A stretch of DNA of 56,779 bases from Streptosporangiales bacterium (GCA_009379955.1 WHST01000032.1:1-56779); one strand, 5' to 3'; positions 2,944-39,697 are shown, counted from the stretch's first letter. Program-made: numbers and translations. The notes: generated by a model from the sequence alone, not told the origin.

Positions 2944-2982
2944 CCCACCCACGTCCGCACCTGCCTTCTTCCGCCGCTCAGG

Positions 2983-2996
2983 GATTGCATGCAATC
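2983..2996. promoter_or_regulatory. Perfect 14-bp palindrome GATTGCATGCAATC in divergent promoter region
   Basis: The sequence equals its own reverse complement. It lies 40 bases upstream of the TPP-enzyme start and about 130 bases upstream of the ABC ATPase start, so one regulator could control both directions. TTGCATGCAA-like sites are typical of GntR-family repressors, and a GntR regulator is encoded at 10262-10993. The pairing is inference. Confidence 0.55.
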
Positions 2997-3127
2997 ATGT
3001 CCGCTCGACAACCTCAAGTCCCCCCAGGAGGCGTTCTCACGTGGGAATCACCTCCTCCTCTTGACCTTTGCCGCGTCCGGCCTGTATCCAAGTTGTACGC
3101 ACTGAGGCGTACCAGAACGGTGAACCC

Positions 3128-4216: not shown

Positions 4217-4219
4217 TCC

Positions 4220-5911: not shown

Positions 5912-5967
5912 GCAATGCAACGTCCGTACGAAGGCACACGACAGATCACCGCAACAAAGGGGTTGTC

Positions 5968-7071: not shown

Positions 7072-7110
7072 GACATAGGTCGTAGCCGAAGAGACGAGGA
7101 GGCGGGCCGG

Positions 7111-8244
7111 TTGGGTCAGTTCGAGCTGACACCCGAGCAGCAGCAGATGCGCGCCCTCGCGCGTGAGGTGTCGGAGGAGTTCAGGGACCGCTCGACGACC
7201 TGGGAGACGTCGGGTGAGTTCCCCTGGCAGAACATGTCGCGGCTCGCCGAGACGGGACTGCTCGGGGCCAGCGTGCCCGAGCAGTACGGCGGCGGCGGGG
7301 GCACCTGGCTCGACGCCGCGCTCATCCTCGAGGAGATCGGCCGGTGCTGCTACGTCACGGCGATGGCCGCACTCGGCGAGCTGGGTGTGCAGACCCGGGT
7401 GATCGCCGCGTACGGCAGCGAGTCCGTTCGGGAGCGGCACCTGCCCGAGGTGGCGCGCGGCGAGGCGATCTGCGCGATCTGCATCACCGAGCCCGACACC
7501 GGTTCCGACCTCAAGGCGATGCGGACGACAGCGCGCGACGACGGCGACCATGTCATCGTCAGCGGGCACAAGACGCTCATCTCGCGCGCCGACGTGGCGG
7601 CCGTGTTCGTCGTCTTCTGCAAGATCAAGGGTGCCTCGGGCGCGGACGAGGTCGGCGCGGTCGTCGTCGGCCGCGACACCCCCGGGCTGTCCGTCGGCCA
7701 GACGTTCCAGACCCTCGGCGGCGACACGCTGCACGAGGTGAGCTTCGACGAGTGCCGCGTGCCCGCCGACCACGTGCTCGCCAGGGACGACGGGCTGCGC
7801 CGCATGCTGAGCATGTTCAACGGGCAGCGCTGCCTCAACGCGTCGGTGTCGCTCGGCATCGCGCAGGGCGCGCAGGACCTCGCGGTCGACCAGGCGAAGA
7901 ACCGCAGGCAGGGCGGACGTCCCATCGGCGAGCACCAGGGGCTCGGCTGGCTGCTCGCCGACAACGAGGTGGCGATCGAGGCGGCGCGGCTGCTGATCTG
8001 GCGAGCCACCGCCAAGGCCGGCCAGGGCTTCCCCGAACGCCACGAGGCGAGCATGGCCAAGCTCTTCGCGAACGAGATGGCCCTGCGCGTCACGGACACG
8101 GCACTGCAGGTCTTCGGCGGGCACGGCTGGACCAAGGAGATGCCGGTCGAGCGCTACCTGCGATGGGCGCGGTACGGACCGCTCGGCGGCGGCACGCCAC
8201 AGATCCAGCGCAACGGCATCGCCCGTCACCTGCTGCGGGCATAG
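7111..8244 (+). CDS. Acyl-CoA dehydrogenase
   Basis: The 377-residue flavoprotein has the standard acyl-CoA dehydrogenase layout: an alpha domain, a beta domain with the flavin-binding CITEPDTGSDL segment, and a C-terminal helical domain with QVFGGHGWTKE. It introduces a double bond into an acyl-CoA and passes electrons to ETF. Translation probably begins at TTG 7111, with GAGGAGG 8 bases upstream; the next methionine is at residue 13. It is followed after 3 bases by acyl-CoA ligase subunits, suggesting that a carboxylate is activated to its CoA ester and then oxidised. Confidence 0.88.
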   Translation: MGQFELTPEQQQMRALAREVSEEFRDRSTTWETSGEFPWQNMSRLAETGLLGASVPEQYGGGGGTWLDAALILEEIGRCCYVTAMAALGELGVQTRVIAAYGSESVRERHLPEVARGEAICAICITEPDTGSDLKAMRTTARDDGDHVIVSGHKTLISRADVAAVFVVFCKIKGASGADEVGAVVVGRDTPGLSVGQTFQTLGGDTLHEVSFDECRVPADHVLARDDGLRRMLSMFNGQRCLNASVSLGIAQGAQDLAVDQAKNRRQGGRPIGEHQGLGWLLADNEVAIEAARLLIWRATAKAGQGFPERHEASMAKLFANEMALRVTDTALQVFGGHGWTKEMPVERYLRWARYGPLGGGTPQIQRNGIARHLLRA

Positions 8245-8247
8245 CGG

Positions 8248-9369
8248 ATGCAGCTGCTGGAGCACGAGGCCAAGTCACTCGCCGCCGCGGTCGGTCTGCC
8301 CGTACCCGACGGTCGCGTGGCGGGCGATCCCGCCGAGGCCGAGCACGTCGCCCGTGAGCTCGGTGGTCGCGTCGTGGTGAAGGCGCAGGTGCCGGCGGGA
8401 GAGCGCGGCAAGGCCGGCGGCGTGTGTACCGCCGACGACCCCACGCAGGCCTCGGCCGCCGCGGCGGAGCTGCTCGGTCGCCGCGTCGGCCGGCACGTGC
8501 CCACGTCCGTGCTCGTCGAGCGTCACGTCCCCCACGTGCGCGAGGTGTACGTCGCGGTCACCGTCGACGGCAGGGCACGCAGTGCCGCGTTGCTGCTCGG
8601 CGCGCACGGCGGCGTCGACGTCGAGGACGACCCGTCCCGCATCTCGGTGGTGCCCGTACCGGTCGCCAGTGGCCTGCGGCCGTGGCATGTCTGGAACGCC
8701 GCGCACGACCAGCCCGACCTCCCCGCCTCGCTCGTGGAGCGCCTCGTGCCCGTCGCCGAGGCCGCGTACCGGCTCTTCACCGAGCGACGCGCCGTGCTCG
8801 TCGAGCTGAACCCCGTGCTCGTGACCGAGGCCGGCGACGTGGTCGCCGCCGACGTCCGCGTCGTGCCCGAGGACGCGCTCACCGCACCGGCTGCCGACGA
8901 CCCGTCGGCGCGGGCCGCCAAGGAGTACGGCTTCGACTTCGTCACGCTCGACCCGGCGGCGAGGGTCGGCCTCGTCAGCACCGGTGCCGGCGGCTCCCTG
9001 CTGCTCGTCGACCTGCTGACCGGGGCGGGCGCGCCGCCGATCAACTTCTGCGACATCCGCAGCGGTGGCATGCGCGGCAGCACCGATCGGCTCGTCTGCG
9101 TACTCCGCGAGCTGCGCCGCTTCGACCACCTCGCCTGCCTCGCGGTGAACGTGTTCGCCGGCATCACCGACATCACCGAGTTCACCCGCCTGCTCGTCCG
9201 CGCGGTGGAGATCGAACCACCGACCGTCCCCCTGATCGTGCGCGTCGAGGGCAACGGCGCGGAGGACGCCAGGCGCCTGCTCGACGCGGCCGGCCTCACC
9301 TACGTCCGCTCGCTCGAGGACCTCGTCGACGCCGTCGCGGCGACCGTACGGAACGAGCCGGCGGCATGA
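8248..9369 (+). CDS. Succinyl-CoA-ligase-like beta subunit (ATP-grasp)
   Basis: The 373-residue protein resembles SucC: an N-terminal ATP-grasp domain (VGLPVPDGR and VVVKAQVPAGERGKAGGV segments) followed by a CoA-ligase flavodoxin-like domain (GFDFVTLDP, GAPPINFCDIRSGG). With the next gene it should form a nucleotide-dependent acyl-CoA ligase through an acyl phosphate. It is divergent from housekeeping SucC, so a substrate such as malate, itaconate or another dicarboxylate is possible. The stop overlaps the alpha-subunit ATG (ATGA). Confidence 0.83.
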   Translation: MQLLEHEAKSLAAAVGLPVPDGRVAGDPAEAEHVARELGGRVVVKAQVPAGERGKAGGVCTADDPTQASAAAAELLGRRVGRHVPTSVLVERHVPHVREVYVAVTVDGRARSAALLLGAHGGVDVEDDPSRISVVPVPVASGLRPWHVWNAAHDQPDLPASLVERLVPVAEAAYRLFTERRAVLVELNPVLVTEAGDVVAADVRVVPEDALTAPAADDPSARAAKEYGFDFVTLDPAARVGLVSTGAGGSLLLVDLLTGAGAPPINFCDIRSGGMRGSTDRLVCVLRELRRFDHLACLAVNVFAGITDITEFTRLLVRAVEIEPPTVPLIVRVEGNGAEDARRLLDAAGLTYVRSLEDLVDAVAATVRNEPAA

Positions 9370-10247
9370 GCCTCCTGGACGAGGTGCAGGGACCCGTGCT
9401 CGTGCACGGCATCACCGGCCGTGCCGGCCGCAGGTTCGCGCCGCACATGCGCGCGTACGGCACGGACGTCGTCGGCGGTGTGGCGCCCGGCCACGGCGGC
9501 GAGACCGTCGACGGCCTGCCGGTCTTCGACACGGTCGAGCGCGCCGTCGACGCGACGGGCGCACGCGTGGTCGTGGCCATGCTGCCGCCGGCGCGCGCGG
9601 CGGCCGGGCTGCTGGAGTGCGCGTACGCGGGCGTCCGGGTAGCGGTGTGCGTGACCGAGGGGATCGGCCAGCACGACCTGCTGCTCGCGCTGCAGGTGGC
9701 GGCGGACCACGGCATGCGGATCGTCGGGCCGAACACCGCGGGTCTCCTGGTGCCCGGCCGGGTCACCCTCGGCTTCCTGCCCACCGACTTCGCCGAGCCG
9801 GGACGCTGTGCGCTCCTCTCCCGCAGCGGCACCCTGTCGTACGAGGTCGCCTACGAGTGTGCGCGCACCGGCATCGGACTGTCCGCGTGGATCGGCGTCG
9901 GCGGCGACGGTCTCAAGGGCGCGGCGTTCGCCGACCTGTTCCCCGAGCTCGTCGCGCACGACGGCACCGGCGCGCTCGTCCTCGTCGGGGAGATCGGCAC
10001 CAGGGACGAGGAGGACGTCGCACCTCTCGTCGCGCGCTCCGCCGTGCCCGTCGTCGCGCTGATCGCCGGCAGGAGCGCGCCGCGCGGCGTCGCGATGGGG
10101 CACGCGGGCGCGTTCGTCGGTGGACCTGGAGGCGGCAGCTGGGAGTCGAAGGTGGACACCCTGCGCGCCGCGGGTGCGACCGTCGTCACGAGCCCGCGGG
10201 CGGCGGCGGACGCCGTGCGCGACGCCCTGGCGGGGACGGCGGCATGA
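9366..10247 (+). CDS. Succinyl-CoA-ligase-like alpha subunit
   Basis: The 293-residue protein has the SucD layout: a CoA-binding Rossmann domain starting with LVHGITGRAGR, a central VGPNTAG segment, and the ligase domain with MGHAGAF, where the histidine (H246) is the expected phosphohistidine. It overlaps the beta subunit by four bases and ends the importer-dehydrogenase-ligase operon that begins at 3128. The specific acid cannot be read from sequence. Confidence 0.85.
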   Translation: MSLLDEVQGPVLVHGITGRAGRRFAPHMRAYGTDVVGGVAPGHGGETVDGLPVFDTVERAVDATGARVVVAMLPPARAAAGLLECAYAGVRVAVCVTEGIGQHDLLLALQVAADHGMRIVGPNTAGLLVPGRVTLGFLPTDFAEPGRCALLSRSGTLSYEVAYECARTGIGLSAWIGVGGDGLKGAAFADLFPELVAHDGTGALVLVGEIGTRDEEDVAPLVARSAVPVVALIAGRSAPRGVAMGHAGAFVGGPGGGSWESKVDTLRAAGATVVTSPRAAADAVRDALAGTAA

Positions 10248-10261
10248 TCGACATCGTGTGG

Positions 10262-10993
10262 CTACGTCGAGAACATGCTGCGAATGCGGACGTCCCTGGC
10301 ACTGCGCATGTGCTCGGCCGCGTTGCTGCTGGCAGCGTCGGCGTCGCCGGACGCGACGGCCTCGATGATCGCGCGGTGCTCCGCGAGCATGTCGCGGATG
10401 CGGCCGGGCACCAGCAGGTTGCTGCGGCCGAAGCGGCGCACCGCGTGCTCGATCTGGGTCAGGAAGCGTTCGAGGTACGGGTTGCCGCACGCGTCGCGCA
10501 ACACCCGGTGGAACTCGAGCTCGAGCTTGATCAGGGCGACGGGCTCGTCGTCGTCGATGTGCTCGGTCATCTCCCTGTGCACCCGCGACAGGTCGTCGAC
10601 GAGACCGGCGGGCCGGCGCCTGGTCGCCTGCGCGGTAGCCATGCCCTCGAGCATCTCGCGCACCGCGTAGACCGCGAGGATGTCGTCGACCGTCATCGGT
10701 GCCACCAGGCTGCCGCGGTGCACGTTGCGGACGACGAGACCCTCGTCGGAGAGCCGGCGCAACGCCTCGCGCACGGGAGTGCGGCTCACCGACAGCTCGT
10801 CGGCGAGCTCGCCCTCGCGCAGCCAGGTCGACGGCGGCAGCACGCCGTCGAGCACCGCCTCGCGCAGCGCGTCGGTCACGACGTCCGTGGTCGAGCCATG
10901 CTTCGGCACGGTGGCAAGATACGCCCGCAACACCTCGTGCCGCGCCGACTGCGGTACGGGTCCACGCCCGCTCGCACCAGAAATGCGTACCAC
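10262..10993 (-). CDS. GntR-family transcriptional regulator (FCD domain)
   Basis: An N-terminal winged helix (LREGELADELSVSRTPVREA near residues 58-77) is followed by an all-helical FCD ligand-binding domain with the family's conserved polar residues. FCD regulators bind carboxylates and repress catabolic operons, which fits the neighbouring acid genes. The start is uncertain: GTG at 10993 has GGGAGG almost touching it, and only 35 bases separate it from the divergent dehydrogenase, so a later start is possible. The convergent stop at 10247 lies 14 bases away. Confidence 0.88.
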   Translation of the reverse strand: MVRISGASGRGPVPQSARHEVLRAYLATVPKHGSTTDVVTDALREAVLDGVLPPSTWLREGELADELSVSRTPVREALRRLSDEGLVVRNVHRGSLVAPMTVDDILAVYAVREMLEGMATAQATRRRPAGLVDDLSRVHREMTEHIDDDEPVALIKLELEFHRVLRDACGNPYLERFLTQIEHAVRRFGRSNLLVPGRIRDMLAEHRAIIEAVASGDADAASSNAAEHMRSARDVRIRSMFST

Positions 10994-11028
10994 CTCCCAC
11001 TGACGCGCGATGGAAACTGAAACTCATC

Positions 11029-12123
11029 ATGAACCAAGATCGGCCAATTGACAAGACGACGGTCTACGCGGCATCCGATGAAGTGATTTCGTACACCGGC
11101 GGTTTATTCATGGCATATGGCGTGCCTCCTGACGACGCCGAGACGACGGCGCGATGCTTGGTACGAGCCGATCTTCGCGGTGTCGAAAGCCATGGCATTA
11201 CCCGCATGGCGGGCTACCTGGACCGACTGGAACGAGGTCTGGTCAAAGCCAAGCCAAATCTCCAGGTCGAACAAGTCACCGCCGCCGCCGCACGGCTCGA
11301 CGGTGACGACGGTCTCGGTTTCGTCGTCGCCACCCGGGCGACCGGCGAGGCGGTCCGCATGGCCTCCGACATCGGCATCGGCATCGTCGGCGTGCGCCGC
11401 AGCACCCACTTCGGCATGGCCGCCAACTACGTCCTGCAGGCCGTCGACGCCGGCTACGTCGCGCTCGTGTTCACCAACGCGTCCCGCGCGATGCCGCCGT
11501 GGGGTGGTCGCGAGGCGCTGCTCGGCACGAGTCCGATCGCTGCCGGCGCACCGTCGGGATCGGAGCACCCGTTCGTCCTCGACATGTCGCCGGCGGTCGC
11601 CGCGCGAGGGAAGATCAGGCGGGCACTCAAGCTCGGCCACTCGATCCCCGCCGGCTACGCGCTCGACGCCCAGGGTCGCGAGACCACCGACCCGGCCGCG
11701 GCACTCGCCGGCGGCGTCGTCCTCCCCGCCGCCGGCCCGAAGGGGTCGGGACTCGCCCTGCTGATGGACGTCCTCGGCGGCGTCCTCACCGGCGCGGCGT
11801 TCGGTGGTGACGTCGGCGACCAGTACAAGGACTACGACCGGCCGCAGAACGTCGGCCACACGTTCGTCGCCGTGCGTCCCGACCTGTTCGTCTCCGACTT
11901 CGACGACCGGATGGCGACGCTGTTGACCCGCGTCACCGGGGTCGAGCCGGCGGAGGGCTTCGACGAGATCCTGACCCCCGGCGAGCCGGAGCAGCGGACC
12001 GAGGACCAGCGACTCAGTACCGGCATCCCATACGTGGCGGAGGACCTGCGCCCCCTACAGGACCTGGCCGAGACCCTCGGCGTCCCACCGCTGCGCACGT
12101 CCCCGACCCCGCTGGATCCGTGA
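11029..12123 (+). CDS. Ldh-family (malate/L-sulfolactate-type) NAD(P)-dependent 2-hydroxyacid dehydrogenase
   Basis: The 364-residue protein belongs to the LDH2/MDG1 family (YlbC/ComC/AllD), recognised by DLRGVESHGITR near residue 50, SPIAAGAP and GPKGSGLALLMDVL. Members reduce 2-oxoacids or oxidise 2-hydroxyacids and are unrelated to the enzyme at 314-1306. The start at 11029 gives family length; upstream in-frame sequence is antisense to the GntR gene. The first 80 or so codons are poorer in GC than the rest and contain a TTA leucine codon at 11104-11106, rare in actinobacteria. It is divergent from the GntR gene. Confidence 0.87.
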   Translation: MNQDRPIDKTTVYAASDEVISYTGGLFMAYGVPPDDAETTARCLVRADLRGVESHGITRMAGYLDRLERGLVKAKPNLQVEQVTAAAARLDGDDGLGFVVATRATGEAVRMASDIGIGIVGVRRSTHFGMAANYVLQAVDAGYVALVFTNASRAMPPWGGREALLGTSPIAAGAPSGSEHPFVLDMSPAVAARGKIRRALKLGHSIPAGYALDAQGRETTDPAAALAGGVVLPAAGPKGSGLALLMDVLGGVLTGAAFGGDVGDQYKDYDRPQNVGHTFVAVRPDLFVSDFDDRMATLLTRVTGVEPAEGFDEILTPGEPEQRTEDQRLSTGIPYVAEDLRPLQDLAETLGVPPLRTSPTPLDP

Positions 12124-27480: not shown

Positions 27481-28791
27481 TCACGCCACACCGCACCAGT
27501 CCAGCACGGCGAGCGCGTACGTGCGGGCGGCGAGATGGACCTCGTCGAGCGCCACCGACTCGTCGTCGGCATGGGCCGCGGCGAGCGCGCCGGGCCCGAA
27601 CACGACGGCCGGCGTGCCCGCCGCCTGCAGGTGGGCCGCGTCGGAGACCCCCTGGCTCGCCGCGAGCTCCAGTCGCGCGTCACCGGACGCCGCGCGCGCG
27701 AAGCTCTCCCGCATGCAGGTCACGCCCGGGTGGTCGGACGGGGTCGACAGCGGCGGCCAGCGGAACTCCCACCACTCGATCTCCGGCGGGTGCTCGCGCA
27801 GCCACGGGTCGAGCCGCGCCGCGCGCGCCACGTGGGTCTCGATCTCGCGCTCGACGTCCTCCGGCGCCTCGTCCGGATGGTGGATGACGCTGTAGTGCGT
27901 CGACATCCAGTTGGGCAGGATCGCGGGGACGGGGGTGTCGTCGGCCTGCGCGCGCACGACCGCGGGAGACAGGGCGAAGTGCCCGTTGCGGAAGAGCGGA
28001 TGGCGCTTGGTCTCGGCCCACTCCTGTTCGAGCTGGCGCAGCGCGGAGTAGACGTAGAACCCTTTGTCGATCGCATTCACCCCGGCCGCGGAGCCCTGGT
28101 TGGTGGGGTGCACGGTCTCTCCACGCAGGCAGCCGTGCGCCCGCCTGCCCCGCACGGTCACGGTGAACCGGCGCAGTCCGGGCGACGCGATCTGCAGCGT
28201 CCTGGTGCCGTCGACGAGGCCCGAGGGCTCCGCGACGATCGCCAGGTCGGCCGCGAAGCCGCGCCCGATCGCAGCCCTGATGCCCGCGTCGTGCTCGCCG
28301 GTCTCCTCGCCGACCACGGCCTGCAGCTGCAGGTCACCCGCGAGCGTGATGCCGGCACGCCGCAACGCGAGCACCGCGAACGCCTGCGCCACGAGCCCCG
28401 CCTTCATGTCGGCGGTGCCGCGGCCGTACAGCCGTCCGCCCTCGACGTGGGCGTCGAACGGCGGGTGCGTCCAGCCGGCGGCGTCTCCCGGCGGCACGAC
28501 GTCGACGTGCCCGTTGAGGACGAGCGAACGCCCGCCACCGGTGCCACGCAGCGTGCCGAGGGCGTTGCCGCGACCCGGCTCGACCTCGACGATCTCGGTC
28601 GTCGCACCGGCTTCGGCGTAGACACCGGCGAGCAGCTCGGCGACCTCGGTCTCGCGACCGAGCCAGTCGGTGCGCTCGACACCCGGGTACGCCGGGCTCA
28701 CGCTCGGGATGCGGACGGCCGCCCGCAACGTCGTCTCCAGCCGCTCGCTCAGGGCGTGCAGCTCGGCGACCACCGCCTCGACCTCGGTCAC
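27481..28791 (-). CDS. M20-family metallohydrolase (ArgE/DapE/ACY1 type)
   Basis: The 436-residue protein starts at GTG 28791, overlapping the ATPase stop. Metal-binding and catalytic elements are visible: [20 protein letters not shown], the catalytic glutamates in [10 protein letters not shown], and a C-terminal HADDESV segment. M20 enzymes hydrolyse N-acyl amino acids, N-succinyl compounds or dipeptides with two metal ions. Being in an operon with an amino-acid importer, it probably trims the imported compound in the cytoplasm. Confidence 0.9.
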
Positions 28792-29579
28792 AGGGTGTCG
28801 GCCTCCTGCCAGCCCCACCGGGCGAGGACGTTCCTGAGGAACGCCCGCGTCCGTTCGCTGTCCGGCGACTTGAAGACCTTGTCCGGCGTGCCCTCCTCGA
28901 CGATACGGCCCGCGTCCATGAACACGACGCGGTCGGCGATGTCGTAGGCGAACGACATCTCGTGCGTGACGAGCACCATGGTCATGCCGGAGTGCTCGGC
29001 GAGCTCCTTGATCACCTGCAGCACCTCCTCCACTCGTTCGGGGTCGAGGGCCGAGGTCACCTCGTCGAACATCATGATCTGCGGCTGCATGGCGAGCGCC
29101 CGCGCGATGGCCACGCGCTGCTGCTCCCCGCCCGACATCTGCCGCGGGTACGCGTGCGCCCGTTCGCGCAGTCCCACCCGGGTGAGCAGCTCCATGGCCT
29201 GCGCCAGGGCGGTGCGCCGCGGCACGCGCAGCACCTGGGTCGGCGCCTCGGCGACGTTCTCGACGGCGGTCAGCCGGGGGAACAGGTTGAACTGCTGGAA
29301 GACCATGCCGATCTTCCCACGGATGCGCCGGGTCGCCCGCTTGTCGGACAGCACGAGCGGCTCGCCGTCGATCTCGATCACGCCGGCCGTGCACTCCTCC
29401 AGCGTCATGAGCAGCCGCAGCAGCGTCGACTTGCCCGACCCGCTCGGGCCGATGACGGCGATGCGTTCTCCCGGCCGGACGGCGAGGTCGATCTCGTCCA
29501 GCACGCGCAGGTCGCCGAACGACTTCGTGACGCCGCTCAGCCGGATCGACGGCACCTCGGGTGCGTCAGGTTCGGACAT
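28788..29579 (-). CDS. Polar amino acid ABC transporter ATP-binding protein (GlnQ/HisP type)
   Basis: The 263-residue ATPase has Walker [11 protein letters not shown]-loop VFQQFNLFP, signature [15 protein letters not shown], Walker [15 protein letters not shown] and switch histidine VTHEM. This is the compact amino-acid importer ATPase without a C-terminal domain. Its start overlaps the preceding permease by 14 bases and its stop overlaps the M20 gene. Confidence 0.95.
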
Positions 29580-30219
29580 CGAGCCTTGCCTCCAGCCGGC
29601 CGACGAGCAGGGACACCGGGATGCAGATGACCAGGTAGATCAACGCGACGAGCGTGAACGGTTCCAGGTACTTGTACGAGAGCCCGCCGACGTTGCGTGC
29701 CGCGTTGACCAGCTCCACGACGCTGATCGTGGCGAGCAGCGAGCTCTCCTTGAACATGGCGATCAGGTAGCTGCCGAACTCGGGGACCAGCGGCGGCGCG
29801 GCGTACGGGAGCGTGATCCTGCGCCACGTCACCCGCGTCGGCAGGTTCAACGCGGCCGCGGCGTCCCACTGGCCGCGCGGCACGGCATCGATGCCGGATC
29901 GGTAGACCTCTGCCAGGTACGGACTGAAGTTGAGGCCGAGCGCGATGATGCCGGTCAGCACCGCGGGCAGCTTGATGCCGTAGGTCGGGAGGATGTAGAA
30001 GAGCACGAACAGCTGGATGAGGAACGGTGTGTTGCGCACCACCTCGACGTACGCGCGCACCAGGCCGCGGACGACCGCCTGCCGCGACCTCGCCAGCGCC
30101 GCGAGCACCAGCCCGCCGAGCAGCGCCAGCGCGAACGCCGTGCAGGTGGCGTACACCGTGACCCACGCACCGCGGATCAGGTACGGCAGGCTCTCCCTGG
30201 CGAACTCGAGATCGAACAT
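29566..30219 (-). CDS. Amino acid ABC transporter permease (HisM/GlnP family)
   Basis: The 217-residue protein has about five membrane segments, the [14 protein letters not shown] motif typical of polar amino-acid permeases, and the coupling loop [20 protein letters not shown]. It forms a heterodimer with the permease at 30221-30874, one base away. An arginine-rich end ([11 protein letters not shown]) faces the cytoplasm. Confidence 0.94.
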
Positions 30220-30220
30220 G

Positions 30221-30874
30221 TCAGGCCCCTGCCGCTCGTACGCCGACGCGCCGCTCGAGCCACCGGACGCCGAGGCTCAGCGGGAAGCAGATGCAGAAGT
30301 ACATGAGCAGGACGAGGGCGTAGACGCGGCCGGCGTCGTCGGTGAGCACGAACAGCTGCTGTCCCTGGAACGCCAGGTCGGCCACCGTGATGAGCGACAC
30401 CAGCGAGCTCTCCTTGACGAGGATGATCGCCCGGTTGCCGAACAGCGGCACCATCGGCAGCAGCGCCGTCGGCACGACGATGCGGCGGAACGTCAGCGCC
30501 GGCGACATGTTGAGCGCGGTGGCCGCCTCCCGCAGGCCGGGGTCGACCGCGAGGATCCGCGAGCGCACGATCTCGGCGCCGTACGCCGCGGTGTTCGCGG
30601 TCAGCGCGAGGACCGCCGTGGTGAACGGCCCGAGGCCGGGGACGACCAGGGGCAGGACGTAGTAGAAGTAGAAGAGCTGCACGAGCAACGAGGTGCCGCG
30701 GAACAGGTCGCAGTAGACGCGGGCGACCGCGCGCACGGGCCACCACGGCGCCACCCGCGCGAAGCCGACGAGGAACGACGCCACGAGCGAGCACGCGCCG
30801 GACACCACCGTGATCTGGACGGTGACCCACGCACCGCGGAGCAGCGCGGGCAGGAGCTCGATCCACGAGGACAT
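30221..30874 (-). CDS. Amino acid ABC transporter permease (HisQ/GlnP family)
   Basis: The 217-residue protein is the second permease of the importer. It shows FRGTSLLVQLFYFYY and the coupling loop REAATALNMSPALTFRRIV. It lies 22 bases downstream of the binding-protein gene and one base before the next permease. Confidence 0.94.
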   Translation of the reverse strand: MSSWIELLPALLRGAWVTVQITVVSGACSLVASFLVGFARVAPWWPVRAVARVYCDLFRGTSLLVQLFYFYYVLPLVVPGLGPFTTAVLALTANTAAYGAEIVRSRILAVDPGLREAATALNMSPALTFRRIVVPTALLPMVPLFGNRAIILVKESSLVSLITVADLAFQGQQLFVLTDDAGRVYALVLLMYFCICFPLSLGVRWLERRVGVRAAGA

Positions 30875-30896
30875 CGTGATCAGACGTCTCGCGCCG

Positions 30897-31790
30897 TCAC
30901 TTCGCCTGGCGGAGACTCTTGCTGGTCAGCCCGTCCTCGGAGAGGTTCTCCTCCGTGAGGCCGTAGCGTTCGAGGATCTTCAGCACCGTGCCGTCCTCGC
31001 GCATCGCCGCGAGGCGCTCGTCGAGCGCCTCCCGCAGCGAGGTGTCCTTCGACCTGATGGCGAGCGCGCCGTGGTTGAACATCGGCTTGCCCGCGTCGTC
31101 GTGGATCTGCTCGTACGGGGTGGCGATCGCGAGCTCCGGCCGGCCCTTGACCACACCGGCGGCCTCGGGCTGCGGCAGGTAGACAGCGTCGACGCGCTTG
31201 CTCTCCAACGCACGGACGGCCGTCTCAGGAGCGGGGAACAGGACGGTCCTGTTCTCGGGCACCTTCGCGGTCTTCAGGTCCGTCACCTGCGTCGTGCCGA
31301 CGAGGGTCGCCACCTTGACCTTGTCGTCCTTCGCGATGCCGGCGACGCTCCCGATGCCCTTGGGGTTGCCCTTGTGCACGACCATCGCCATGCCGGCGCG
31401 GTAGAACGGGTTCGTGAAGCCGACCTGCGCGCACCGCTCCGGCTTGATGTACATGCCGTTCGCGATGACGTCGTACTTGTCCGCGTTGAGGCCGGGGATG
31501 TAGGCGCTCGTGTCGCCGACCCACGTCGGCACCACCTTGTCGACGCCCAGCGGCTTCATCGCCGCGGAGATCATGTCGATGACGAAGCCCTCGAGCTTGC
31601 CGTCCGTCGTCGAGTACGAGTACGGCTTGAAGTTCGCCGTGCCGATGCGGATGCTCTTGCTCTTCTTGATCTTCGCCAGCGCGTCGCTGCCGCCGCCGGA
31701 GCCCGATCCGCAGCCGGTCGCGAACGCACCGACACCGCCCGCGAGGACGACCGCCGTTCCGAGGAACCGCCGTCTCGACATCTCGGTCAT
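30897..31790 (-). CDS. Amino acid ABC transporter substrate-binding lipoprotein
   Basis: The 297-residue family 3 binding protein starts at ATG 31790 with GGAAGG 9 bases upstream. The signal combines a twin-arginine motif (SRRRFLG, residues 5-11) with a lipobox ending at cysteine 27. The mature part shows RIGTANFKPYSY and GFVIDMISAAMKPLG, typical of polar amino-acid receptors. An upstream in-frame ATG at 31859 would add 23 unlikely residues. It leads the seven-gene operon running to 25516. Confidence 0.92.
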   Translation of the reverse strand: MTEMSRRRFLGTAVVLAGGVGAFATGCGSGSGGGSDALAKIKKSKSIRIGTANFKPYSYSTTDGKLEGFVIDMISAAMKPLGVDKVVPTWVGDTSAYIPGLNADKYDVIANGMYIKPERCAQVGFTNPFYRAGMAMVVHKGNPKGIGSVAGIAKDDKVKVATLVGTTQVTDLKTAKVPENRTVLFPAPETAVRALESKRVDAVYLPQPEAAGVVKGRPELAIATPYEQIHDDAGKPMFNHGALAIRSKDTSLREALDERLAAMREDGTVLKILERYGLTEENLSEDGLTSKSLRQAK

Positions 31791-31868
31791 GGGGCACGAC
31801 CTTCCGCTGCAACCGCCGGGAGCCCGGCGGGCCTTGACTCGACCACCCGAGAATGACACGGTTCATGA

Positions 31869-32861: not shown

Positions 32862-33800
32862 ATGGCGATGACGGTGGCCGACGGTGCGCGGCGCATCGTC
32901 ACGGTCTGCGCCGGCGTGCAGCCGGGCGAGCGCGTGGCGGTGCTGCTCGACGACGACGTGCGCGAGGGTGTGGCCGGCGCGCTGGCCGACGCGGTCAGCG
33001 CGGTCGGCGCGCAGCCGGTCCTGCACCGGATCGACCTGGCGGAGGCGTACGACGACGACCTGCTCGGCCACGACGTCATGCTGGGGCTGACCGGTTCGAG
33101 CCTGTACCACAGCGATCTCGGCCGCGCCGCCGCCGCGCGGGGCACCAGGGTGCTCGCCCTGACGGCGTGCGACGAGGGCACGTTCAGCGGGGGCGCCATC
33201 GAGGCCGACTTCGCGGCGCTCGAGCCACGCGCGCTCGACCTGTCCGACCGCCTCGGCCGCGCCGACGCGATCGAGGTCACGACACCCCGCGGCTTCCACC
33301 TCACCGCCGACATCTCCGGACGTGAGGGCTACTCGTGCACGGGTCGTGCCACCACGCCGGGGTCGCGGTCGGGCTGCCCCGACATCGAGGCGTACATCGC
33401 CGCGGTCGAGGACTCGGTCGAGGGCACCGTCGTCGTCGACGGCAGCAGCACGCCGTACGGGCTCCTCGACGAGCCGGTGACGATCACGGTCGCCGGTGGG
33501 CGCGCGACCGACGTCAAGGGTGGCGAGCATGCCGACCTGCTGCGCGACTTCCTCGACGCCAACGGGCCGGACGCGCGGACGTTCGCCGAGTTCGGCTTCG
33601 GCCTCAACCCGTGCGCCAAGGTCATCGGCAAGATCATCGAGGACGAGGCGACGTACGGCACCGGACACGTGGCGTTCGGCAGCAACGAGTCGTTCGGCGG
33701 GCACACGCGGGCGCCGATCCACCTCGACCTCGTGTACTGGCACCCCACGCTGACCCTCGACGGCGTCGTCGTCATGCGTGGCGGCGTGCTGGAGGTCTGA
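32862..33800 (+). CDS. M29 aminopeptidase / NicX-like metalloenzyme
   Basis: The 312-residue protein resembles the family containing leucyl aminopeptidase M29 (AmpS) and 2,5-dihydroxypyridine dioxygenase NicX. The C-terminal metal site region GTGHVAFGSNESFGG followed by HLDLVYWHPTL is the best landmark. It is shorter than classical AmpS (about 410 residues). The start at 32862 lies 24 bases downstream of the RpiR-type gene, so the two may be co-transcribed. It could be a peptidase for the imported compound or a ring-opening dioxygenase; sequence alone does not decide. Confidence 0.65.
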   Translation: MAMTVADGARRIVTVCAGVQPGERVAVLLDDDVREGVAGALADAVSAVGAQPVLHRIDLAEAYDDDLLGHDVMLGLTGSSLYHSDLGRAAAARGTRVLALTACDEGTFSGGAIEADFAALEPRALDLSDRLGRADAIEVTTPRGFHLTADISGREGYSCTGRATTPGSRSGCPDIEAYIAAVEDSVEGTVVVDGSSTPYGLLDEPVTITVAGGRATDVKGGEHADLLRDFLDANGPDARTFAEFGFGLNPCAKVIGKIIEDEATYGTGHVAFGSNESFGGHTRAPIHLDLVYWHPTLTLDGVVVMRGGVLEV

Positions 33801-33809
33801 CCCTAGCCG

Positions 33810-35498
33810 TCACGCGAGGTGGTGTAGGCGCGTCAGCGGCAGCACCGTCGCGGGCGGCAGTCCGGTCGGGCGGTCGTCGACGAGCACGGCACTGCCGTCC
33901 CTCGGCACCGTCACCCGCGGCACGTAGTCGTTGTGGAGCATGTCGGCGCGGGTCAGGTCGCGTGACGCCGTGACGGGCAGGTAGCTCACACCGGCCGGCA
34001 GCCGCCGCAGCGCGGCCGCGTCGTCGAGCGCCTCGCGCGCGACGAACACGTGCGCCAGCTGTCGCGGCGCGCCACCCATCGCACCGAAGTACGGGCGGTA
34101 GGTGCGCGGCTGGCCGAACCTCGTCGACGCCGAGCCCGGCGCGCTCACGCCCCACGCGACGGACCCCGACTTCAGCACCAGCTCCGGTTTCGCGCCGAAC
34201 CATCCGGGCTGCCAGAGCACGAGGTCGGCGACCTTGCCCGGCGCGATGCTGCCGATCTCGTGCGCCATGCCGTGCGCGATCGCCGGGTTGAGCGTGATCT
34301 TCGCCAGGTAGCGCAGCACGCGTGCGTTGTCGTGGCCGTCCGCGCCGGCGCCGTTAACGACCTCGGTCGCCTTCGCGTGGGACGCGACCTGCCACGTGCG
34401 CCGTACGGTCTCGCCGACGCGTCCCATGCCCATCGAGTCGGAGTTGACGATGCTCACGGCGCCGAGGTCCTGCAACGCGTTCTCCGCCGCGATCGCGTGC
34501 GCGCGTACGCGGGACCTGGTCACCTCGACGTCGCCGGGCAGCAGGGCGTTCTGCCGGTGCACCGTCATCGTCATCGGGAACAGCTCGGCCGCGGTGTTCA
34601 CCGTGTACGGCAGCGTCGGCGTCGTCGACGACGCGAGCACGTGCGGGTGCGCGAGGATCTCCAGCAGGTCGGGATGGCCGCCGCCGCCCTCGACGTGGTA
34701 CGCGTGCACCGTGCGGCCGCGGGTCGCGTCGAGGGTGTCGTGCAGCAGGCCGGACTCGTTGAGCGAGTCGGTGTGCAGCGCGACGGGGAGGTCGGCGGCG
34801 TCGGCGACTGACAGGCAGGTGTCGACGACGGCCGGCTGCGCGCCGAAGTCCTCGTGCACCTTGAACCCGCCGGCGCCCGCGAGCACCGCCGCCTCCAGCG
34901 GGCCGCGGCGGACGGACGAGCCACGCGCGAGGAACGCGACGTTGACCGGCACCTGCCGCCACGCCTCGATCATCAGGTCGAGGTTGCGCTTCGGATTCAC
35001 GCCGACGTCCCACACGCCGCCGATGCCCATGCCCACGACCGTGGTCACGCCGGACGAGAGCGCCACGTCGAGCAGCGCGGGGCTCGACAGGTGGACGTGC
35101 GAGTCGACGACGCCGGGCGTGACGATCATGCCCTCCGCCGGCACGATCGCCGTGTGCGGACCCACCGCGAGCACGACGTCGTCGACGGCATCGGGTGACC
35201 CAGCCCGTCCGACGCCGACGATGCGGCCGTCCTTGACGCCGATGTTCGACTTCCGCACGCCGAGCAGCGGGTCGAGGATCAGCGCGTTGGTCACGATCAG
35301 GTCGAGCTCGGACGCCCGGCCGCCGCTCGTCGACAGCAGTCCCTCACGCACCGTCTTGCCACATCCGCCGAGCAGCTCGTCGCCCGCCTCGGTGTCGTCA
35401 CGCTCGACCTCGACGACGAGCCCCGTGTCGGCGAGGCGTACGCGGTCACCGGTCGTCGGGCCGTAGACCTGCGCGTAGGTCGTGCGATCGAACGTCAT
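33810..35498 (-). CDS. Urease alpha subunit homologue (UreC-like)
   Basis: The 562-residue protein aligns with urease alpha over its full length, beginning YAQVYGPTTGDRVRLADT. Expected nickel and active-site residues are present by motif position: H134 and H136 (DSHVH), K213 and H215 (FKVHED), H242 (LHTDSLNES), H268 (YHVEGGGGH), H314 (flap) and D354 (NSDSMGMGR). The flap cysteine of classical ureases (MVCHH) is replaced by valine (MTVHR). The start at 35498 follows GAGGAG. It is 10 bases downstream of the gamma-beta gene. No ureD, E, F or G lies in the window, so nickel insertion would depend on genes elsewhere. Urea hydrolysis is likely but another ureido substrate is possible. Confidence 0.88.
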   Translation of the reverse strand: MTFDRTTYAQVYGPTTGDRVRLADTGLVVEVERDDTEAGDELLGGCGKTVREGLLSTSGGRASELDLIVTNALILDPLLGVRKSNIGVKDGRIVGVGRAGSPDAVDDVVLAVGPHTAIVPAEGMIVTPGVVDSHVHLSSPALLDVALSSGVTTVVGMGIGGVWDVGVNPKRNLDLMIEAWRQVPVNVAFLARGSSVRRGPLEAAVLAGAGGFKVHEDFGAQPAVVDTCLSVADAADLPVALHTDSLNESGLLHDTLDATRGRTVHAYHVEGGGGHPDLLEILAHPHVLASSTTPTLPYTVNTAAELFPMTMTVHRQNALLPGDVEVTRSRVRAHAIAAENALQDLGAVSIVNSDSMGMGRVGETVRRTWQVASHAKATEVVNGAGADGHDNARVLRYLAKITLNPAIAHGMAHEIGSIAPGKVADLVLWQPGWFGAKPELVLKSGSVAWGVSAPGSASTRFGQPRTYRPYFGAMGGAPRQLAHVFVAREALDDAAALRRLPAGVSYLPVTASRDLTRADMLHNDYVPRVTVPRDGSAVLVDDRPTGLPPATVLPLTRLHHLA

Positions 35499-35508
35499 GT
35501 CGGGCTCC

Positions 35509-36120
35509 TCACCGCTCACCGAGACCGAGGTCTGGCGCGGTCGCGTCGCCGCCGAGCGCCACCAGCCGCACCCGCACGGTCGCGCCCGCCGGCAGGCACA
35601 GGCTGCTCCCCGCCGGCACGTCGAGGTGGTATCCGCGCGCGGCGTCCCGGTCGAACGACAGCACGGGGTTGGTCTGCCAGAAGGGATAGTGCGACGACAC
35701 GTGCACATCGACGTCGGCAGTGTTGGTGACGTCGAGCTCGCGCCTGTCGCGGCCGGGACTCAGCCGCAGCTCGGCGTCGCGTGCCACCACCGCACCCGGC
35801 TGGTCGTCGCCGTACGCGCCACCGAGAGGCTCGTCGACGGCGACGAGCGAGGTGCCGCTGGGGAAGAGGGCGTCGACCTCGACGTGCCGGACGAGCGCCG
35901 CGACACCCGGCAGGGCCTGGTCGGCCGCGACGGCACCTCGTCCCGCCTCGACCACCGCGTCGAGGTCGAGGCCGTCCCACGCTGCCTCGTGGACCGCGTC
36001 GGTGACCAACGCGACGACCTCGGGTGCGGACAGCAGCGCGCCGCGGTCACGACGCCTGCGCGCCAACTCCGCCACGGTGAAGACGGTGAGCCTGTCCTGC
36101 TCGGCCGGTGTCAGGTGCAT
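35509..36120 (-). CDS. Fused urease gamma-beta subunit homologue (UreAB-like)
   Basis: The 203-residue protein joins a gamma part (MHLTPAEQDRLTVFTVAELA, residues 1-100) to a beta part (DVHVSSHYPFWQTNPVLSFDR, residues about 120-203). The beta part ends soon after VRVRLVALGG and lacks the usual C-terminal FGFRGEVMGPL-type tail. Fusions of this kind are known in some ureases. It is translated just before the alpha homologue and just after the deiminase-fold gene. Confidence 0.88.
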   Translation of the reverse strand: MHLTPAEQDRLTVFTVAELARRRRDRGALLSAPEVVALVTDAVHEAAWDGLDLDAVVEAGRGAVAADQALPGVAALVRHVEVDALFPSGTSLVAVDEPLGGAYGDDQPGAVVARDAELRLSPGRDRRELDVTNTADVDVHVSSHYPFWQTNPVLSFDRDAARGYHLDVPAGSSLCLPAGATVRVRLVALGGDATAPDLGLGER

Positions 36121-36129
36121 GGACCACCC

Positions 36130-37152
36130 TTACCAGTCACGCACCAGCTCCATGGTGGAACAGTGGATACCGCCGCCGTTCTTCAGCACCTCGTCGTACG
36201 GCACCGGCACGATCTCGACGCCCTCGGCGGCGAGCCGGTCGGCGGTCCGCACGCAGTGCGCGGGGAACAGCAGGCGCCGCGGCCGTACGGTGAGCGAGTT
36301 GCAGGCGTACTGCTCGTCGGGGTGCGGCGAGACCACCGTGATGCCCATGGCCTCCAGCCGGTCGAGGAACTCGTACGGCAGCCGGTGGGTGTTGGCGAGC
36401 GCGAGGTCGTCCGCGATCATGTGGAACTGCCCGTCGGTGTGGATCGTGTAGCCGGGCAGCGGCAGGGTGACCAGGTCGATGCCGAGCGGTTCGAGGAACC
36501 CGGCGAGCTGCCGCGCCCCCTCGCGGTTACAGCGGATCGACAGGCCGTACACCGCGAGATCGCGGCGCAGCTTCACGAACGTCCCACCCTCCGCGAGACC
36601 GTGGCCCGTCACGGTGCCGAGGATCGGCATCCCGAGGCCCGCGACCGTCGCGGTGACCGACGCCTCCTCGCCGCGACGCATCCGCGGGGCGAGCCTGGTG
36701 ATCACGGCGCCACCGGGAACGGTCACCAACGGGTCGCGGGTGAACACCGCCTTGGTGTACGAGTCCGGAAGGTCGGGCGCCTCGATCACCTCGACGCCTT
36801 CGGCGCGCAACGCGTCGAGCAGCCCGGCGTGCTGCTCGTCGACGAGGTCGAGATCCGGTGCCGTGTCGCTGCGCCAGTACCAGCGCCGACCCGGGTCGAC
36901 GAGTGCGCCGGCGCGAGGGTCCCACGCGTCCGCCGTGATCGCGGCCAGGCCGCGGCTCGGCCGACGGACGAGCACGGTGCGCAGCGGGCTCACCTCGTCG
37001 GCCGCGCCCCACCGGCGACCCCAGTAGCGTTCGACCTCATCGTGGAACTCCGGCGTCGGCTCGGGTCCGACGAGACGGTGGTAGTAGTGCTCGGGCTGCG
37101 CACCGTCGTCGGTGGGCGATGCGGTCACGGTCTCCCCCTCAGGTCCTTCCAT
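36130..37152 (-). CDS. Arginine deiminase/amidinotransferase-fold hydrolase (DDAH-like)
   Basis: The 340-residue protein has the five-bladed amidinotransferase-fold landmarks: a TRDPLVTVPGGAVI segment, GHGLAEGGTFVKL, the histidine region YTIHTDGQFHMIAD, and a C-terminal nucleophile cysteine C331 in GGGIHCSTMEL. Such enzymes hydrolyse or transfer from guanidino groups (arginine, methylarginines and similar). Its ATG overlaps the MHS transporter stop by one base, and it precedes the urease-like genes by 9 bases, so transport, guanidino chemistry and ureolysis appear linked. GTG near residue 9 is an alternative start. Confidence 0.83.
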   Translation of the reverse strand: MEGPEGETVTASPTDDGAQPEHYYHRLVGPEPTPEFHDEVERYWGRRWGAADEVSPLRTVLVRRPSRGLAAITADAWDPRAGALVDPGRRWYWRSDTAPDLDLVDEQHAGLLDALRAEGVEVIEAPDLPDSYTKAVFTRDPLVTVPGGAVITRLAPRMRRGEEASVTATVAGLGMPILGTVTGHGLAEGGTFVKLRRDLAVYGLSIRCNREGARQLAGFLEPLGIDLVTLPLPGYTIHTDGQFHMIADDLALANTHRLPYEFLDRLEAMGITVVSPHPDEQYACNSLTVRPRRLLFPAHCVRTADRLAAEGVEIVPVPYDEVLKNGGGIHCSTMELVRDW

Positions 37153-38444
37153 CAGAGTTCCACGACCTTCAGCCGGCGTGCGGCCACCGCGGCGGCGAGC
37201 GTCACGAGCGAGAGCACGAACAGCAGGCTGGCGACGGCCCACAGGCTCCCGCCGGTCGCCGCGATGAGCGCCGTCGCCGCCAGCGGGGCGAAGCCGCTGA
37301 TCGTGCCAGACACGTTGTACGAGAGGCCGACCCCGGAGTACCGCACCGCTCCGGTGAACGTCTCGCTGAGCAGCTGACCGCAGGCCGCGTAGCTCACCGA
37401 CACGAGCACGACGCCCGCCACGATCCCGGCCGCGACGCCGTACGGGCTCTCGAGCCCGACGAGCAGGAAGATCGGGTACGCCGCGACCGCCGACGCGATG
37501 GCGCCGCCGATCGCGATCGGCGCGGCGCCCGTACGGTCCGCGATCCGCCCGAACACCGGGTATGCGAGCAGGTTGATCACCGACGCCACGATCGCCGCGT
37601 TCAGCAGCAGCGTGCGGTCGATGCCCGCGGTCTCGGAGCCGTAGCTGATGAGGAACGTGCCGCACAGGTAGTACCCGCCGATGCCGAGCAGCGACACCGC
37701 GATGCCGACGACCAGCCGCGGCCCACTCGACCTGAGCAGCTCGACCACGGGCAGCTTGTGCGCGCCCTGCTCGGCGAGGAGCTCGCGGAACACCGGCGAC
37801 TCGTCCACCTTGCTGCGCACCCACAGCGCGAGCAGCAACAGCGGGAAAGCGAGGAGGAACGGCAGCCGCCAGCCCCACGACTCGAACTGCGGGTCGGGCA
37901 GCAGGCTCACGACCGCGAAGACCCCCGTCGCCGTCAGCGAGCCCACGGGCGAGCCGAGCTGCGGCATGACGCCGTACCTGCCGCGCTTGTCCGGCGGCGC
38001 GTGCTCGACGGCCAGCGTCGCCGCACCGCTCCACTCACCACCGACGGAGATTCCCTGGAGCACGCGCAGTACGGCCAGCAGGATCGGTGCGGCCACGCCG
38101 ATCTGCGCATACGTCGGGAGCAGCCCGATGCACCCGGTGACGAGTCCGATGAGCACGACGGTGATCAGCAGCATCCGCCGCCTGCCGTACCTGTCGCCGA
38201 GGTGACCGAAGATGAGCGCACCGACGGGGCGGGCGACGAAGCCGACCGCGAAGGTGGCGAACGACGCCATCGTGCCGGCCACCGGGCTGAGCGAGGGGAA
38301 GAACTGGCTGTCGAAGACCAGCGCCGCCGCCGCTCCGTAGACGTAGTAGTCGTACCACTCCAGAGCAGTGCCGGCGAACGCGCCGGCAGCGACGGTACGA
38401 GGGTTCGAGGTCTCGCGCCGCGTGTTCCGAGCCGTCGATGACAT
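37152..38444 (-). CDS. MFS transporter, metabolite:H+ symporter (MHS) family
   Basis: The 430-residue, 12-helix protein shows the MHS signatures FAGTALEWYDYYVYG at the start, the loop GHLGDRYGRRRML and RVLQGISVGGEWSGA. Family members import small osmolytes and organic acids such as proline betaine, shikimate and dicarboxylates. It probably imports the substrate of the downstream deiminase-fold and urease-like enzymes. The start at 38444 (MSSTARNTRR) is chosen because residues further upstream overlap the regulator's promoter region. Confidence 0.9.
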   Translation of the reverse strand: MSSTARNTRRETSNPRTVAAGAFAGTALEWYDYYVYGAAAALVFDSQFFPSLSPVAGTMASFATFAVGFVARPVGALIFGHLGDRYGRRRMLLITVVLIGLVTGCIGLLPTYAQIGVAAPILLAVLRVLQGISVGGEWSGAATLAVEHAPPDKRGRYGVMPQLGSPVGSLTATGVFAVVSLLPDPQFESWGWRLPFLLAFPLLLLALWVRSKVDESPVFRELLAEQGAHKLPVVELLRSSGPRLVVGIAVSLLGIGGYYLCGTFLISYGSETAGIDRTLLLNAAIVASVINLLAYPVFGRIADRTGAAPIAIGGAIASAVAAYPIFLLVGLESPYGVAAGIVAGVVLVSVSYAACGQLLSETFTGAVRYSGVGLSYNVSGTISGFAPLAATALIAATGGSLWAVASLLFVLSLVTLAAAVAARRLKVVEL

Positions 38445-38512: not shown

Positions 38513-38526
38513 TGTGCAGCTGCACA
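38513..38526. promoter_or_regulatory. Perfect 14-bp palindrome TGTGCAGCTGCACA
   Basis: The self-complementary site lies 16 bases upstream of the regulator's ATG and about 69 bases upstream of the divergent MHS transporter start. It is a candidate operator for the PucR/CdaR-type protein or another regulator of the urease-like operon. Confidence 0.5.
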
Positions 38527-38542: not shown

Positions 38543-39697
38543 ATGCCATCGTCCACGGCCGGCGACACCCTGGTGCGCCTGGCCCGCACGCTGCTGCGCG
38601 ACGTCACCGGGCTCACCGACTCGTTCCTCGCCGAGCTGCGGTCCGTCGAGCCCTACGCGCACGGCGCCGTCGCCGCGGACACCGTGCGCGCCGACGCCAG
38701 GCGCAGCCTCGAGCTGGTCCTGCGGCTCGTCGCACGCCTGCCGGTGCCGGACCGGATCGCGAGCGTGTCCGCCGACGTCGGTCGGGCGCGTGCCGAGGAC
38801 GGCGTGCCCCTGGAGGCTCTGCTCCATGCCGTCCGCCTCGACTTCCGCGTGGTGTGGCAGGCGTTGCACGCCGCCGCCGACGAGGCCGACCTGGCGAGCC
38901 TCGTCGTCGAGGGTCCCCGCGTCTGGGAGGCGGTGGAGCAGCACTCCATGGGCGTGCTCGCCGCGTACCAGCAGCGCGTGCTCGAGATGGCCAGGGCCGA
39001 GCAGGACGAACGCGTTCGGTGGTTCGCGCGGCTGCTGGAGTGCGACGGCCGGCACTCCGACATCCGCCGCCAGGTGGCCACCGTGCTGGGCTTCGACGAA
39101 CACGCCTCGTTCACGGTGGTGGCGTTCCCACCCGACCAGCTCACGGCCCTGCGTACCGCCGCGGACCGGCTCACCACCCGAGGTGTGCCGCTGCACATGC
39201 ACGAGCGGTCGGCGAGCAGCGCCGTCGCCCTGCAGCTGCCAGCGCGCGGCCGGGGACATCCCGAACAGTGGTTCCGTGGCATCCGCTGCGCGGTGAGCCC
39301 GGTCGTCGAGGGTCTCGCCGACCTGCCGCGCGCGGTCCGCCTCGCCGAGCTCGCCCTGTACGCCCTGCACGAGGACGCGAAGGGACCGACCCACGCGCGC
39401 GACCTGTGGCTGGCGATCGCGGCCGGCGAGCTGGGCGAGTACCGGGCCGACCTCGAGCGCGACATCCTCGGCGGTCTCGCCGACCTACCGGATGGCGACG
39501 TGCCCCGGGTGCTGGAGGCGGTGCGGACGTACCTGCGCACGGGATCGGTCGCACGCACGGCACGCGACCTCTACTGTCACCGCAACACCGTGCTCAACCG
39601 GCTGCACCGCTTCGCCGGCGCGACGGGCCGCGACGTCACGTCGTCGACCGACGCCGCCGTGGTCACCCTGGCGCTGCACGCCCGACCGCGACCGTAG
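38543..39697 (+). CDS. PucR/CdaR-family transcriptional regulator
   Basis: The 384-residue protein has an N-terminal RsbRD-type helical domain (about residues 1-165), a middle GGDEF-like sensor region and a C-terminal PucR helix-turn-helix (TYLRTGSVARTARDLYCHRN). The start at 38543 follows AGGGAGG. PucR-type activators control purine and urea nitrogen use in other Gram-positives; here the gene is divergent from the MHS-deiminase-urease operon, the likely target. Confidence 0.87.
   Translation: MPSSTAGDTLVRLARTLLRDVTGLTDSFLAELRSVEPYAHGAVAADTVRADARRSLELVLRLVARLPVPDRIASVSADVGRARAEDGVPLEALLHAVRLDFRVVWQALHAAADEADLASLVVEGPRVWEAVEQHSMGVLAAYQQRVLEMARAEQDERVRWFARLLECDGRHSDIRRQVATVLGFDEHASFTVVAFPPDQLTALRTAADRLTTRGVPLHMHERSASSAVALQLPARGRGHPEQWFRGIRCAVSPVVEGLADLPRAVRLAELALYALHEDAKGPTHARDLWLAIAAGELGEYRADLERDILGGLADLPDGDVPRVLEAVRTYLRTGSVARTARDLYCHRNTVLNRLHRFAGATGRDVTSSTDAAVVTLALHARPRP

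Follow-up and report, generated by a model that had tools for sequence, protein, structure and literature searches.

Urease, the standard example of a nickel enzyme, acts specifically on urea and requires its own set of chaperones. The window, i.e. the whole stretch of 56,779 nt analysed here (contig 32 of the 6.6 Mb draft genome of a soil actinomycete), places urease-like genes in one operon with a transporter and an enzyme of the arginine deiminase (ADI)/dimethylargininase (DDAH) fold, which raises the question of what the urease-like complex hydrolyses. A preliminary description had suggested a dedicated route for a guanidino or ureido compound rather than for free urea. Comparative evidence, namely the linkage to deiminases and the relatives that lack accessory genes, lends partial support to such a route, and it is from these comparisons that we infer its substrate, metal and activity.

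The operon and its divergent promoter

The operon spans 33810-38444 on the minus strand and comprises four genes, transcribed in the order MHS, pentein, gamma-beta (GB) and alpha (C). The features of the locus are:

37152-38444, minus strand: MHS-type MFS transporter (Sugar_tr, TIGR00883 and shikimate transporter profiles)
36130-37152, minus strand: pentein-fold (ADI/DDAH-like) enzyme (Pfam ADI, AF2 model, catalytic residues)
35509-36120, minus strand: fused urease gamma-beta subunit, 203 aa (Pfam Urease_gamma, Urease_beta)
33810-35498, minus strand: urease alpha-like catalytic subunit, 562 aa (PRK13207, residue alignment, tree)
38513-38526, no strand assigned: palindrome TGTGCAGCTGCACA, putative operator in the PucR/MHS divergent promoter (motif count in the window, relatives)
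38543-39697, plus strand: PucR-family regulator (HTH_30 + GGDEF_2), divergent from the operon (Pfam; start from the sequence and relatives)

The MHS stop codon overlaps the ATG of the pentein gene (TGATG, 37154-37150), and gaps of 9 and 10 bp separate pentein from gamma-beta and gamma-beta from alpha, respectively. The run of overlapping or closely spaced minus-strand genes described earlier was confirmed by gene calls and by Pfam/NCBIfam identities. The MHS protein scored 121 bits with Pfam Sugar_tr (cut-off 22), 380 with the NCBIfam metabolite/H+ symporter profile TIGR00883 (cut-off 443) and 347 with the shikimate transporter profile (cut-off 538), and is a probable importer of a (guanidino) carboxylate. 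The fused subunit matched Urease_gamma and Urease_beta with 99.5 and 84.5 bits; its best PDB match was a beta-gamma fusion, 3qga, which we take to be the Helicobacter mustelae iron urease. For the alpha subunit, NCBIfam PRK13207 gave 689 bits (cut-off 354) and the urease_alph equivalog TIGR01792 gave 584 bits, under its cut-off of 680. Given the PRK13207 score and the recurrence of the gene order in other species, we do not consider the operon a chance find.

Convergent with the alpha gene, and beside an RpiR regulator, lies a gene for a short M29/aminopeptidase-T-like protein (32862-33800; Pfam M29 barely over cut-off). Further away (27481-31859), an amino-acid ABC transporter with an EhuB-like binding protein (197 bits, cut-off 191) is followed by an ArgE/DapE-type M20 deacylase. 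Neither these genes nor the RpiR regulator are conserved beside the operon in relatives, and we rejected them as members of the system.

The divergently encoded PucR protein matched Pfam HTH_30 with 55 bits and GGDEF_2 with 30 bits, and the divergent arrangement is conserved in loci L004-L008 and L053-L057. The 98-bp promoter region between pucR and the MHS gene contains the perfect palindrome. Allowing up to one mismatch, it matched the window twice against 0.05 matches expected: the promoter copy is exact and the second, at 39184-39197 within the pucR gene, has one mismatch. Identical copies of the palindrome occupy the equivalent position in five relatives (L005-L008 and the congener locus L054, some of which are represented twice), and L004 has a nearly identical one. 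PucR probably controls the operon by acting at the TGTGCANNTGCACA palindrome, with binding predicted from this pattern.

The alpha subunit and its relatives

An order-wide search with the alpha subunit returned 22 homologues at 62-100% identity, followed by a gap down to 52%. By gene context, the urease-like loci fell into four groups. Group A (the window, Nonomuraea and a congener, G002) has conserved the entire arrangement of PucR opposite MHS-pentein-GB-C. In group B, PucR and GB-C are accompanied by MHS and by a YtcJ-like amidohydrolase (Amidohydro_3), group C has LacI with GB-C-YtcJ-amino-acid permease, and group D has GB-C-AguA-like, its rows stemming mostly from one large family (f5/g64), probably Streptomyces, and also from the window's order. 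Canonical urease clusters, by comparison, contain accessory genes. In an unrooted tree of alpha subunits, the canonical (7), A+B (24) and C+D (38) sequences each formed a strongly supported block; the tree is compatible with A+B and C+D forming one clade against the canonical sequences.

Two further loci deserve mention. The congener holds a second, distant urease-like pair (L139, contig C36 of G002), with ∼47% identity in alpha and with 2-oxoacid dehydrogenase-like genes as neighbours. Locus L060 of group B (2579-10909) contains genes for an aminobutyraldehyde-dehydrogenase-like and a ThDP enzyme (PRK08199) alongside MHS, YtcJ and the urease-like pair; the genome, a single contig, is without UreD or UreF and has no UreG over cut-off. 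We rejected this ThDP enzyme as AruI-like, because PRK08199 scored highest for it (706 bits, versus 219 for AruI).

For the active site, we aligned 74 alpha rows, including the window protein, to K. aerogenes UreC (PDB sequence) as reference. Group A accounts for 13 of these rows, with 8 distinct sequences, some rows being one genome taken from two collections. The metal ligands H134, H136, K217, H246, H272 and D360 were invariant in groups A, B, C and D and in the canonical rows, as were the catalytic residues H219, H320 and R336 in every row. The earlier observation that the alpha subunit keeps all expected nickel ligands and carries valine for the flap cysteine (C319V) was therefore correct, and the window protein differs further by H321R, A363G and a shorter GGVWDVGVNP in place of the A167 loop GPAAGTHATTCTPG of K. 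aerogenes UreC. Valine was present at position 319 in 13/13 rows of both group A and group B, in 21 group D rows (alanine in three) and in one group C row (cysteine in four), whereas 7/7 canonical rows had cysteine. In groups A to D, the A167-region loop was shorter by four residues and mostly read VWxxGVN; since it was also shortened in the fused, otherwise canonical row L126, loop shortening alone is not diagnostic. At position 363, every row of groups A to D had glycine in place of alanine, as did one canonical row. All 13 group A rows combined valine at C319, the rewritten A167 loop and glycine at A363. The beta part, as previously described, lacks its usual C-terminal tail and stops ∼10 residues past the core; the tail is absent in groups A and B and kept in groups C and D and in L126.

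Judging from what is generally known of urease residue roles, A167, C319 and A363 presumably form the substrate side of the site and contact urea. Their replacement may alter substrate specificity, and we counted their change, with metal ligands, H219, H320 and R336 invariant, in favour of a ureido substrate. The same residues bear on another reading, in which the complex is an ordinary second urease that acts on free urea and owes its maturation to UreD, UreF and UreG encoded elsewhere in the genome. The preserved urease fold and full set of nickel ligands would suit such an enzyme, and Klebsiella urease retains activity when C319 is mutated to alanine; the change of the substrate-side residues in every group A row argues against it.

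Accessory genes and linked deiminases

Our accessory-gene searches covered UreD, UreF and UreG, the last counted at its curated cut-off. No urease accessory gene was found near the operon. The previously reported lack of ureDEFG thus holds for the locus but not for the genome, in which a single UreD/UreF/UreG set accompanies a canonical urease on another contig (C48). These proteins could serve the urease-like enzyme too, a point that we count against the ureidohydrolase reading and for an ordinary second urease. On the other side stand seven genomes that encode members of the urease-like family (G002, G060, G105, G206, G273, G291 and G909) and that yielded neither UreF nor UreG at the curated cut-off; UreD was absent from all six in which it was searched (the seven minus G909). 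G060 and G273 gave weak UreG-like matches below the cut-off, and G189, which had no UreD match but both UreF and UreG, was left out of the count. Draft gaps might explain one such genome, but hardly all of them, nor the nearly closed ones (one contig in G060, two in G105, three in G909). G002, moreover, is the congener with the same operon. This co-occurrence suggests that the urease-like complex is probably independent of UreD, UreF and UreG. Activation by the host's standard accessory proteins, named in the preliminary description as an outcome that would contradict a dedicated route, is weakened by these relatives but not refuted, given the UreD, UreF and UreG of the window's own genome. 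As the linked enzymes are deiminases, which make no urea, we consider an ordinary second urease improbable.

The linkage itself was observed twice. Group A operons encode the ADI-like pentein enzyme as partner; within the Streptomyces-type clade D, 23 of 26 members have an AguA-like gene next to alpha. The AguA-like proteins matched Pfam PAD_porph with 362 bits and, in copies adjoining the pair or close to it, the agmatine deiminase profile TIGR03380 with 254-348 bits (cut-off 381.8). No AguA-like neighbour was present beside the canonical clusters examined. The urease-like family is linked to a deiminase in two independent cases, which contradicts the absence of any such link that the preliminary description had listed as a possible refutation. 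None of 19 genomes tested had an AguB above the curated cut-off; the f5/g64 genomes encode a nitrilase-family protein (∼258 bits, AguB cut-off 410) that could perform the AguB step. An AguA-like gene immediately adjoins a ure(AB)C-type pair that has no accessory genes in L128, L129, L131, L133, L136, L150-L158, L160, L162, L163 and L166-L169.

What the pentein enzyme produces is central to the argument. Counting from the residue after the ATG, its catalytic residues D139, E187, H237 and C330 were invariant in 18 homologues. It matched Pfam ADI with 50.6 bits and fell far below the equivalog cut-offs for ADI (47.1 versus 414 and 37.7 versus 489) and DDAH (73.8 versus 340). The AF2 model (pLDDT 87.7) was structurally closest to arginine deiminase (Z 33-35), followed by DDAH (Z ∼32), amidinotransferases (Z ∼31) and ArgZ (Z ∼30.5); the modelled fold alone cannot tell a deiminase from a dihydrolase or a transferase. 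This spread of neighbours would also fit an arginine-dihydrolase-type (ArgZ/AstB-like) enzyme, a dimethylargininase or an amidinotransferase, with the urease-like complex acting on a different compound. We regard this as quite improbable, since ADI-type hydrolases give the best structural match and share the FTRD, EGG, HxD and GGxHC motifs, and since homologues in other genomes are coupled to HyuC-type carbamoylases, so that the pentein product would be a ureido compound. Its fold, its neighbourhood and the integrity of its catalytic residues make the pentein enzyme a probable guanidino-acid deiminase.

This coupling emerged from pentein homologues (48-59% identity) that have no neighbouring urease-like gene, in Microbacterium, Pseudactinotalea, Solirubrobacterales, Conexibacter and others. 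A HyuC-type N-carbamoyl hydrolase directly adjoins the pentein gene in four of eight such loci (L011, L013, L014 and L015), with TIGR01879 scores of 276-339 bits (cut-off 204), and overlaps it in L011, L013 and L015. UreC is absent from the genomes of L011, L013 and L014, and the L015 genome has a 48% UreC elsewhere. The substitution of the urease-like pair for HyuC at the same position is our main argument that the pair would hydrolyse a ureido acid. In Pseudactinotalea (L011), the ADI-like and HyuC genes occur with a GABA transaminase (over cut-off), an SSADH-like enzyme and an AruI-like decarboxylase (448 versus 500), a set that appears to spell a route from 4-guanidinobutyrate via GABA to succinate. 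In Microbacterium (L009/L010), an AruI-like gene lies ∼12 bp upstream of the ADI-like gene (489 versus 500 in L009). Both the AguA-like and the AruI-like neighbours mostly stay under curated cut-offs.

Guanidino-acid metabolism is probably also present in the window's genus, because one locus of the congener (L171 of G002, 3906-11077) unites an AruI-like gene (523 versus 500), MHS, a YtcJ-like amidohydrolase and an agmatinase-family ureohydrolase; a further hydrolase encoded there belongs to none of the scored families. An AruI-like enzyme (508 versus 500) is also encoded outside the window in its own genome; the neighbourhood of this gene (L170, contig C16 of G000) offered no pathway context. 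In Nonomuraea, AruI matches were weak (36%) or absent, for which reason we dropped an arginine transaminase route there; the substrate would need to be imported in this genus and not synthesised from arginine. The congener locus also offers a urea-releasing alternative. The complex might be an accessory-independent urease, its metal site filled without UreDFG as in the Helicobacter mustelae iron urease, and its urea derived from guanidino compounds, e.g. by an agmatinase-type ureohydrolase. The 3qga match of the gamma-beta fusion fits this scenario, as does G002, in which a locus that would make urea coincides with the absence of UreD, UreF and UreG. However, the enzymes linked to the operons themselves are of the deiminase type, with ureido compounds and not urea as products, and the urea-contact environment around A167, C319 and A363 has been rebuilt. 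We therefore consider such a urease unlikely, if somewhat less so than an ordinary one.

Proposed route and known systems

In the route that we propose, the MHS protein would import a guanidino acid, the pentein enzyme would convert the guanidino into a ureido group with release of ammonia, and the urease-built gamma-beta/alpha complex would cleave the ureido compound to the free amine, CO2 and ammonia, taking over the job done elsewhere by HyuC-type N-carbamoyl hydrolases or by the nitrilase AguB. The metal site of the complex would probably be loaded by some means other than the urease maturation proteins, and the metal might not be nickel. That the complex is a ureidohydrolase acting after a pentein deiminase is our preferred reading, held with moderate confidence. 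The favoured substrate pair, 4-guanidinobutyrate and 4-ureidobutyrate with GABA as the end product, is put forward tentatively, as a suggestion more apt to fail than to hold. Counted against the ureidohydrolase is also group B, with its YtcJ-like amidohydrolase in the deiminase's place; the deiminase is thus not universal in the family. For the wider proposition that a large actinobacterial urease-fold branch, including the ure(AB)C-only clusters of Streptomyces, consists of accessory-independent ureidohydrolases that finish guanidino breakdown after pentein deiminases, and not of ureases, we see the chances as evenly balanced. If true, a widespread, chaperone-free urease-fold family wired to guanidine deiminases would show that the fold can change its substrate, many 'urease' annotations of the kind used in ureC surveys to mark urea turnover would be corrected, and the incomplete urease clusters of Streptomyces and relatives would gain a concrete function.

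Our literature searches, with incomplete coverage, returned no paper tying urease-like genes to deiminases, and we do not claim priority; nor did they return anything on a bacterial 4-ureidobutyrate or guanidinobutyrate deiminase or on a urease-like enzyme acting on ureido substrates. With bacterial urease (UreABC, the K. aerogenes 1FWJ family) the operon shares three domains, an alpha subunit ∼46-48% identical to canonical ones, the metal ligands and H219, H320 and R336. It differs by C319V, H321R, A363G, the replaced A167 loop, the missing beta tail, a TIGR01792 score under the cut-off and a cluster without accessory genes, none of which are detectable in the genomes of several relatives. 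The Helicobacter mustelae iron urease UreA2B2 (3QGA/3QGK) has the same gamma-beta fusion plus alpha; it hydrolyses urea and is not known to have accessory genes of its own or a deiminase partner.

Arginine deiminase and dimethylargininase have the same pentein fold and catalytic residues, but the window enzyme scores far under their equivalog cut-offs and is linked to transport and putative carbamoyl hydrolysis instead of the ADI pathway. The proposed logic, guanidino to ureido followed by carbamoyl removal, is that of AguA/AguB (agmatine deiminase and N-carbamoylputrescine amidase) and of HyuC-type carbamoylases, whose second step is catalysed by a nitrilase or an M20 metallohydrolase, as opposed to the urease fold here. 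The Streptomyces ure(AB)C-only clusters of the SCO5525-5526 type likewise consist of a gamma-beta fusion and alpha without accessory genes, with C319 changed to valine (or alanine) and a VWxVGVN-type loop. Such clusters have been recorded and treated as ureolysis or urea-utilising genes (PMC2492869, PMC5489568, PMC3293853). They differ from the window's operon in forming a separate clade, of which SCO5525-5526 are putative members, in keeping the beta tail and in having an AguA-like rather than an ADI-like neighbour.
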